Source: SAR202 cluster bacterium Io17-Chloro-G2
Lineage (GTDB): Bacteria; Chloroflexota; Dehalococcoidia; Lucifugimonadales; UBA3495
DNA length: 64,000 nt
Direction: 5' to 3'
NCBI GenBank assembly: GCA_002816875.1
Contig: MUCP01000017.1
Span: 1-64,000, forward strand
Position 1 is the first letter of the stretch. Every line of letters starts with the position of its first letter. Below are positions 8,425 to 52,195 of this stretch, piece by piece. The position numbers and the translations under genes are program-made. Below the pieces are notes generated by a model. That model saw nothing but the letters and a program-made list of their open reading frames with translations. It was not told the DNA's origin and ran no database searches.

Positions 8425-8447
8425 GAGCGAACGGCCGTGCGCCCCTA
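8421..8447. repeat. Palindromic dispersed repeat, copy 2
   Basis: GTAGGAGCGAACGGCCGTGCGCCCCTAC-type inverted repeat. Its TAG forms the stop codon of the pentapeptide gene, so the element abuts or created the end of that reading frame. Confidence 0.65.
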
Positions 8448-51010: not shown

Positions 51011-51034
51011 GGGCGCACGGCCGTGCGCCCATAG
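51007..51034. repeat. Palindromic dispersed repeat, copy 4
   Basis: GTAG-GGGCGCACGG-CCGTGCGCCC-ATAG, with a perfect 20-bp palindrome in the centre (51011-51030). As in copy 2, the TAG of the repeat is the stop codon of the preceding gene. A CAGCTCTCAGCGCTCAGCTATCAG-type microrepeat follows (51040-51065). Confidence 0.75.
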
Positions 51035-51191
51035 GTAGCTGCCAGCTCTCAGCGCTCAGCTATCAGTCCTTGGGCTGACGGCGGGTCTTGGGGATGTAGG
51101 CGGGTTAGTGACCGGTGGCTTGATTAGATATTGCCCATCTGTTCATGACGGCTTTGTAGTAACCACACCAACGGAAATAGGTGAAACAAGG

Positions 51192-52169
51192 ATGATGATT
51201 GAATCAGAGGTTAATATCAACTCATCCCACTTTTACATGCGCAACCCAGATGTGGTTATCCTAGAAACTGATCAATCAACATTGTTCCTCGATGTCGAGG
51301 GGCATGTCCTCCGGCTTGATGGCGGCGATCCGGTGAACTGCTCCCAATCACTTCAAAAACTGCTAGCTCCGACACCTGGCGCTGACCTCATCGGCCGGCT
51401 TACGAAAAACCCAAGTGTAGTCGCCAACAACTTTCAACTACTTATTGAAAAGGGAATAATATTTGAGTCAGCTTCCCTAGCTGGTTTAGCAAAGCGACGG
51501 GATAGCGTATTCACCAATAACCTTGGGTATTACCTTGAACGTGGTCAGCCAAGATGCAGGAACCTGGTATTAGGCATCACGGGCAGCGTGGTGTCAGGCC
51601 TTATGGCGCCTGTACTGCTAAGTTTGCTCTGCTCGGGCTTTCAAGAACAATTGGACGTGGTCCTTACTGAAACTGCGCTCAAGTTTGTAACCCGGGATTT
51701 GCTTGAGTCTTACGGCGTTCGAACCTGGGTGGATAAGTTCGAAAGGAGAGATGGGATCACAGTGCCTCACGTTTCCTTGGCTCAGTCCGCGGACTGTTTA
51801 TTCGTAATGCCCGCTACTGCCGCCTGTTGTAGCCGTTTGGCCAGCGGCGATTGCTCTGACCTTTTGTCTTTAACGGTTGCTGCGACTACTGCTCCGGTGG
51901 TGTTGGCGCCAACCATGAACGAGGCGATGTGGAATCATCCACCGGTTCAGAGAAATATGCAGTTGCTACGCGAATCGGGTTTCTACATCGTGGAACCGAG
52001 CTTTATCTTCTCAGCAGCGGACATGAACAATAAGGGCGCCCCCATGTATGGGGGGCCTGGCACATTTTGGCGTGGGCCATTGGGAGTGATGCACTCGATT
52101 TCCGCAGTGATCGAAGATCATTGTGATCGCCGGAGACTGGATGGCCCGAACATTCGTACGGCACAGTGA
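51192..52169 (+). CDS. Flavoprotein-decarboxylase-fold (HFCD/CoaC-like) protein with extra N-terminal domain
   Basis: About 325 residues. From about residue 120 it has the FMN-binding Cys-decarboxylase fold: LVLGITGSVVSGL, catalytic His in VPHVSLAQSADCLFVMPATAA, the APTMNEAMW motif (PxMNxxMW) and a QLLRESGFYIVEP end. The usual P-A-S/T-A-N motif is PATAA, with Asn replaced. No CoaB ligase domain. The first about 110 residues (TLFLDVEGHVLRLDG.., FQLLIEKGIIFES) look like a winged-helix or RRE-type domain. The gene is visibly AT-richer than its neighbours, suggesting transfer. ATG 51192 with AGGTGA ahead is chosen over GTG 51108. Confidence 0.78.
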   Translation: MMIESEVNINSSHFYMRNPDVVILETDQSTLFLDVEGHVLRLDGGDPVNCSQSLQKLLAPTPGADLIGRLTKNPSVVANNFQLLIEKGIIFESASLAGLAKRRDSVFTNNLGYYLERGQPRCRNLVLGITGSVVSGLMAPVLLSLLCSGFQEQLDVVLTETALKFVTRDLLESYGVRTWVDKFERRDGITVPHVSLAQSADCLFVMPATAACCSRLASGDCSDLLSLTVAATTAPVVLAPTMNEAMWNHPPVQRNMQLLRESGFYIVEPSFIFSAADMNNKGAPMYGGPGTFWRGPLGVMHSISAVIEDHCDRRRLDGPNIRTAQ

Positions 52170-52195
52170 GTGCGTCAACCGTCTTCTTCTGACCG

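Follow-up and report, generated by a model that had tools for sequence, protein, structure and literature searches.

An HFCD-type flavoprotein with a candidate recognition domain at its front, inserted in the genome of a SAR202 cluster bacterium

The window analysed here, a stretch of 64,000 nucleotides from the SAR202 cluster bacterium Io17-Chloro-G2 (contig MUCP01000017.1), carries an intact gene for a protein, P0001, in which a front domain of about 110 residues precedes a flavoprotein domain of the HFCD superfamily. What might such a fusion do? The reading that we favour, with confidence evenly poised, is that P0001 uses FMN to decarboxylate a terminal Cys oxidatively, as an enzyme of the HFCD kind that acts outside CoA synthesis on a peptide or acyl-cysteine substrate held by its own front domain. 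The family is a rare, mobile form of a known enzyme kind, and its interesting part is the front domain, not the active-site motif.

51192..52169, + strand: gene of the fused protein P0001, stop codon included; 325 aa, reading frame intact
51192..51548, + strand: front domain, residues 1-119, from the predicted structure and the PqqD profile match
51558..52091, + strand: HFCD flavoprotein domain, residues 123-300, from Pfam PF02441 and Foldseek
51768..51770, + strand: codon of His193, the catalytic-type His of HVxLA (VPHVSLA), invariant in five of five homologues
51810..51824, + strand: PATAA, the PASAN-type motif, residues 207-211, read from the translation
51909..51932, + strand: PTMNEAMW, the PXMNXXMW motif, residues 240-247
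52041..52079, + strand: APMYGGPGTFWRG, the active-site flap position by alignment, residues 284-296

The coding part without the stop codon spans 51192-52166 on the + strand (325 codons). It starts at the ATG at 51192, about 8 nt downstream of a Shine-Dalgarno-like AGGTGA; an in-frame GTG lies upstream at 51108, and the homologues begin near 51192. Promoter and terminator scans of the locus returned counts no higher than in shuffles.

The identity of the C-terminal part is clear. Pfam PF02441 matches this part only (E 1.8e-19, 70.3 bits against a curated cut-off of 22.7), Foldseek matches the domain to TvaF, MrsD, SpaF and EpiD, with TvaF, MrsD and SpaF in the lead, and the best solved relatives are TvaF (6jls, E 3.4e-21) and SpaF (7cfu) for P0001 and SpaF and MrsD for its homologue L024; a likeness to RiPP decarboxylases, RiPP modification being one of two HFCD roles named in the original prediction, is thereby borne out. 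So is the HFCD-type active site: His193 and PTMNEAMW, the catalytic His and the PXMNXXMW motif of the cysteine-decarboxylating branch, are both present in the translation, and their invariant residues are kept in the five homologues. The role of His193 is taken from its equivalent in AtHal3a, His90 (PMC9604783). By analogy, P0001 is likely to decarboxylate a terminal Cys oxidatively, because the AtHal3a equivalents of the conserved residues are required for oxidation and decarboxylation (PMC9604783). The altered PASAN motif, by contrast, had been flagged as unusual and loses that standing. TvaF, the nearest solved relative, likewise has PATAA in the alignment, the alphaproteobacterial relatives have PATAD or PASAD, and CoaBC proteins of the window genome's relatives have PATAN, PATAH or PATAS; judged by alignment, the change at the last position falls within ordinary superfamily variation, and the motif was rejected as a mark of new activity.

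The flap contains PMYGG in all five homologues, whereas the CoaC flap is of the ACG/ASG type. It lacks the Cys with which AtHal3a reduces its intermediate, so an enethiol product would be expected, as shown for RosD (PMC12291118); on its own the flap difference is a weak argument, since CoaBC of the window genome's relatives have Ser at the same place. Those CoaBC proteins have an unusual active site of their own: in all nine aligned relatives the CoaC part (L004-L021) has Asp for the motif Asn (PAMDxxM) and Ser for the flap Cys (LASG).

Could P0001 then be a variant phosphopantothenoylcysteine decarboxylase (CoaC) that serves CoA synthesis? It belongs to the same superfamily, and its top NCBIfam model is CoaBC (E 9.3e-29), yet the score is 100.6 bits against a cut-off of 219.7; coaC_strep gives 70 bits against 261.4, and every CoaBC and CypD model that matches does so below its cut-off. 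In the tree, the 14 CoaC rows group together to the exclusion of P0001 (support 97/95), while the five homologues make up a clade of their own (100/99, present in 100% of bootstrap trees), whose nearest other decarboxylase the tree leaves unsettled. The flap is not that of CoaC, no CoaB follows the gene or is fused to it in close homologues, in line with what had been claimed, and the alphaproteobacterial hosts G348, G349 and G350 each have a separate CoaBC-type gene besides the HFCD gene. A search for CoaBC in the window genome, which is 56% complete, found none, an uninformative result because the HFCD part of the query is matched in 30 of 30 near-complete relatives. The CoaC role, rejected on tree, model score and neighbourhood, is very improbable.

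The family is small. A one-genome-per-species scan brought up three full-length or near-full-length relatives, all from Alphaproteobacteria and 43-45% identical to P0001 (L023, L024 and L025, the last from Zhengella mangrovi and clipped by a contig end); searching the order to which L023 belongs added a fourth, L036 (genome G601), at 42% identity. In the window's own class and phylum, one of 294 and one of 400 sampled genomes matched, each time the window itself. The Zhengella family (1/249), the order of L023 (3/11) and two wider samples around L023 (2/385 and 1/399) returned already-known members; the pattern scan requires exact 8-residue words, and more distant relatives will have escaped it. 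A viral or plasmid origin was rejected: viral contigs held no relative, and no plasmid match covered 80% of P0001, those inspected being CoaC-type or stand-alone flavoproteins. One of the latter, on a conjugative plasmid of Sinorhizobium meliloti (L076:4362-9355), is an HFCD-superfamily protein whose gene neighbours encode a radical SAM protein, a 2OG-Fe(II) oxygenase and a small hypothetical protein. In Zhengella mangrovi, the final ~120 bases of the decarboxylase gene, together with the flank downstream of it, occur a second time at another contig end (L034:1217-1604, L025:715-950), which suggests a duplication or else a repeat at which the assembly broke.

What of the front domain, which sets this family apart? 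Residues 1-119, encoded by DNA of 46.6% GC (51192-51545), match no Pfam or NCBIfam model; the extra domain of about 110 residues stands as proposed. Its model, built with four sequences (mean pLDDT 67), predicts four short strands (residues 14-17, 22-25, 29-33 and 39-43) followed by three helices (47-56, 63-70 and 77-86), at moderate confidence across residues 14-86 (block means 55-86). RREs are strictly defined by three strands then three helices, according to a 2025 survey (PMC12710340), and the predicted order comes close to this definition, with one extra short strand. For a comparison in hhalign, the five front domains were combined in a profile and set against thirteen PqqD-family domains collected in this analysis; the alignment takes in almost the full PqqD domain (66 columns) and scores 20.3, at an hhalign probability of 9.9% from five sequences. 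That score was reached by one of 400 column shuffles (shuffle mean about 10); 48 control windows from unrelated alignments went no higher than 17.6. For an ArsR-type helix-turn-helix the score was 9.3. Pfam PF05402 does not detect the PqqD likeness. The idea of a winged-helix or peptide-recognition domain thus survives in part: the order of elements and a match above the null agree with it and the match is weak, and the front domain can be called RRE-like with moderate support from profile and predicted structure. Comparisons brought up no common unrelated fold for it. Searches of the open-access literature yielded neither an RRE-HFCD fusion nor an HFCD-GNAT pair, and the main text of the survey makes no mention of a flavoprotein decarboxylase fusion (PMC12710340).

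The second element of the pair comes from the relatives. Directly upstream of the decarboxylase gene in L023, L024 and L036, abutting or overlapping it (by four bases in L036), lies a gene for a protein of ~227-286 aa that matches no Pfam model; its predicted structure follows the GNAT order of elements and resembles many GNAT structures (best E 7.4e-08). In Zhengella the 5' part of the GNAT-fold gene ends one contig and the decarboxylase gene begins another, and the two are probably adjacent across the assembly gap. The GNAT-fold gene was not found in the 56%-complete window genome.

No convincing or shared Cys-ending precursor peptide turned up in ~2-7 kb around each of the five genes or in the near intergenic stretches, in agreement with the original prediction for the window's flanks; the small Cys-ending ORFs near the five loci were set aside as chance-like, none being common to different loci. 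With no precursor found at any of the five loci, we do not class P0001 among the RiPP enzymes, though it may be one, and a precursor may be encoded further away. The two-gene layout, with little space for a precursor and no trace of one, would suit a different pathway, in which the HFCD enzyme decarboxylates an N-acyl-cysteine or acylated dipeptide, the product of the GNAT, to an acyl-aminoenethiol, and the front domain serves oligomerisation or partner docking without any ribosomal precursor; stand-alone flavoproteins of the superfamily do occur away from visible RiPP genes, for example on a plasmid near mercury genes. Such a small-molecule route is possible but rather unlikely: PqqD, with which the front domain aligns, binds peptides, the nearest solved enzymes act on peptides, and the search of the window genome brought up no copy of the GNAT. 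Also unlikely, and a shade more so, is a new class of peptide modification, where a cysteine decarboxylase with a fused recognition element would act together with a GNAT to give acylated, decarboxylated (enethiol-ended) peptides from a precursor encoded elsewhere.

How did the gene reach the SAR202 bacterium? It lies in the following stretch.

51011..52195, no strand: gene-holding interval bounded by the stop codons of the gamma-glutamyltranspeptidase and SDR genes, from the junction comparison

The gap between the transpeptidase and SDR genes is ~1,190 bp in the window as against ~55 bp in G020 (L059) and ~135 bp in G007 (L060), where the two genes are convergent; the P0001 gene is an insertion, because its flanking genes are only ~55-135 bp apart in these two relatives. 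As had been noted, the gene is AT-richer than its surroundings: compared with its neighbours alone, it has 51.3% GC and 54% GC3, against 55-63% (mostly 58-63%) and 71-81% in ten neighbouring genes. The window copy was apparently acquired horizontally and apparently without its GNAT partner. In G001, of the same genus, and in G006, different AT-rich ORFs follow the transpeptidase gene or occupy the junction (L056:7932-8447, L057:4028-4263); with such differing sequence the site seems to be one where DNA has been acquired more than once. A perfect 20-base palindrome, GGGCGCACGGCCGTGCGCCC, lies at 51011-51030, directly after the transpeptidase stop codon, and a copy with two mismatches at 8425-8444; the repeat search reported no repeats of at least 14 bases around the P0001 gene. 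Given its foreign composition, the failure to find its partner and the other AT-rich sequence that G001 and G006 carry after the transpeptidase gene, the inserted gene might be a decaying or inert acquisition, a lone copy that does nothing whatever the family does elsewhere. We consider this improbable, for the reading frame is intact, all family-invariant catalytic residues are kept and the Shine-Dalgarno-like AGGTGA is in place.

Under the favoured reading, in which an FMN-dependent Cys decarboxylase brings along a domain that holds its substrate, the HFCD domain would form trimers or dodecamers. The RRE-like winged-helix front domain would hold the substrate, most simply a leader peptide, for the catalytic domain, where FMN, His193 and Asn243 would oxidise the Cys of the bound peptide or acyl-cysteine, release CO2 and leave an enethiol. 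In Alphaproteobacteria, the upstream GNAT-fold partner may acylate the same substrate; the window copy would have arrived horizontally in the convergent intergenic site, apparently alone. Against this scheme stand the lack of a precursor at any locus, the failure to find the GNAT partner in the 56%-complete window genome, the weak PqqD match and the moderate confidence of the front-domain model.

Why would such a fusion matter? The matched RiPP HFCD decarboxylases were solved without a recognition domain, and no RRE was found in the cacaoidin cluster (PMC8068269); how these enzymes find their substrates is therefore an open question. The P0001 family may mark an undescribed natural-product modification pair, a decarboxylase with an acetyltransferase-like gene. 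If so, the fused recognition-like domain and the compact pairing with a GNAT would offer a simple way into tests of substrate recognition, and the family would help to find precursors that neighbourhood-based genome mining misses.

Among known systems, the GNAT acyltransferases resemble the neighbour found in the relatives (not in the window) in fold and order of elements, though this neighbour has no Pfam match. PqqD and the RREs share with the front domain strands followed by three helices and a weak full-length profile match, at a level that Pfam PF05402 does not detect. CoaC of CoaBC has the superfamily and the catalytic residues in common with P0001, which differs in clade, flap and the lack of CoaB, and three of whose hosts have CoaBC of their own. 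LanD-type peptidyl-cysteine decarboxylases (MrsD, EpiD and CypD) are encoded beside a precursor gene, whereas none was found at the P0001 loci; their solved chains lack the front domain and share with P0001 the fold, the catalytic His and a PXMNXXMW-type motif. Closest are TvaF and SpaF, FMN-dependent RiPP cysteine decarboxylases: P0001 falls in a separate clade, away from thioamide or lanthionine genes and a precursor, and their solved chains, in which the match begins at residue 18-24 of about 200, are without the front domain of about 110 residues, but they give the best sequence and fold matches to its HFCD domain, and TvaF shares its PATAA.
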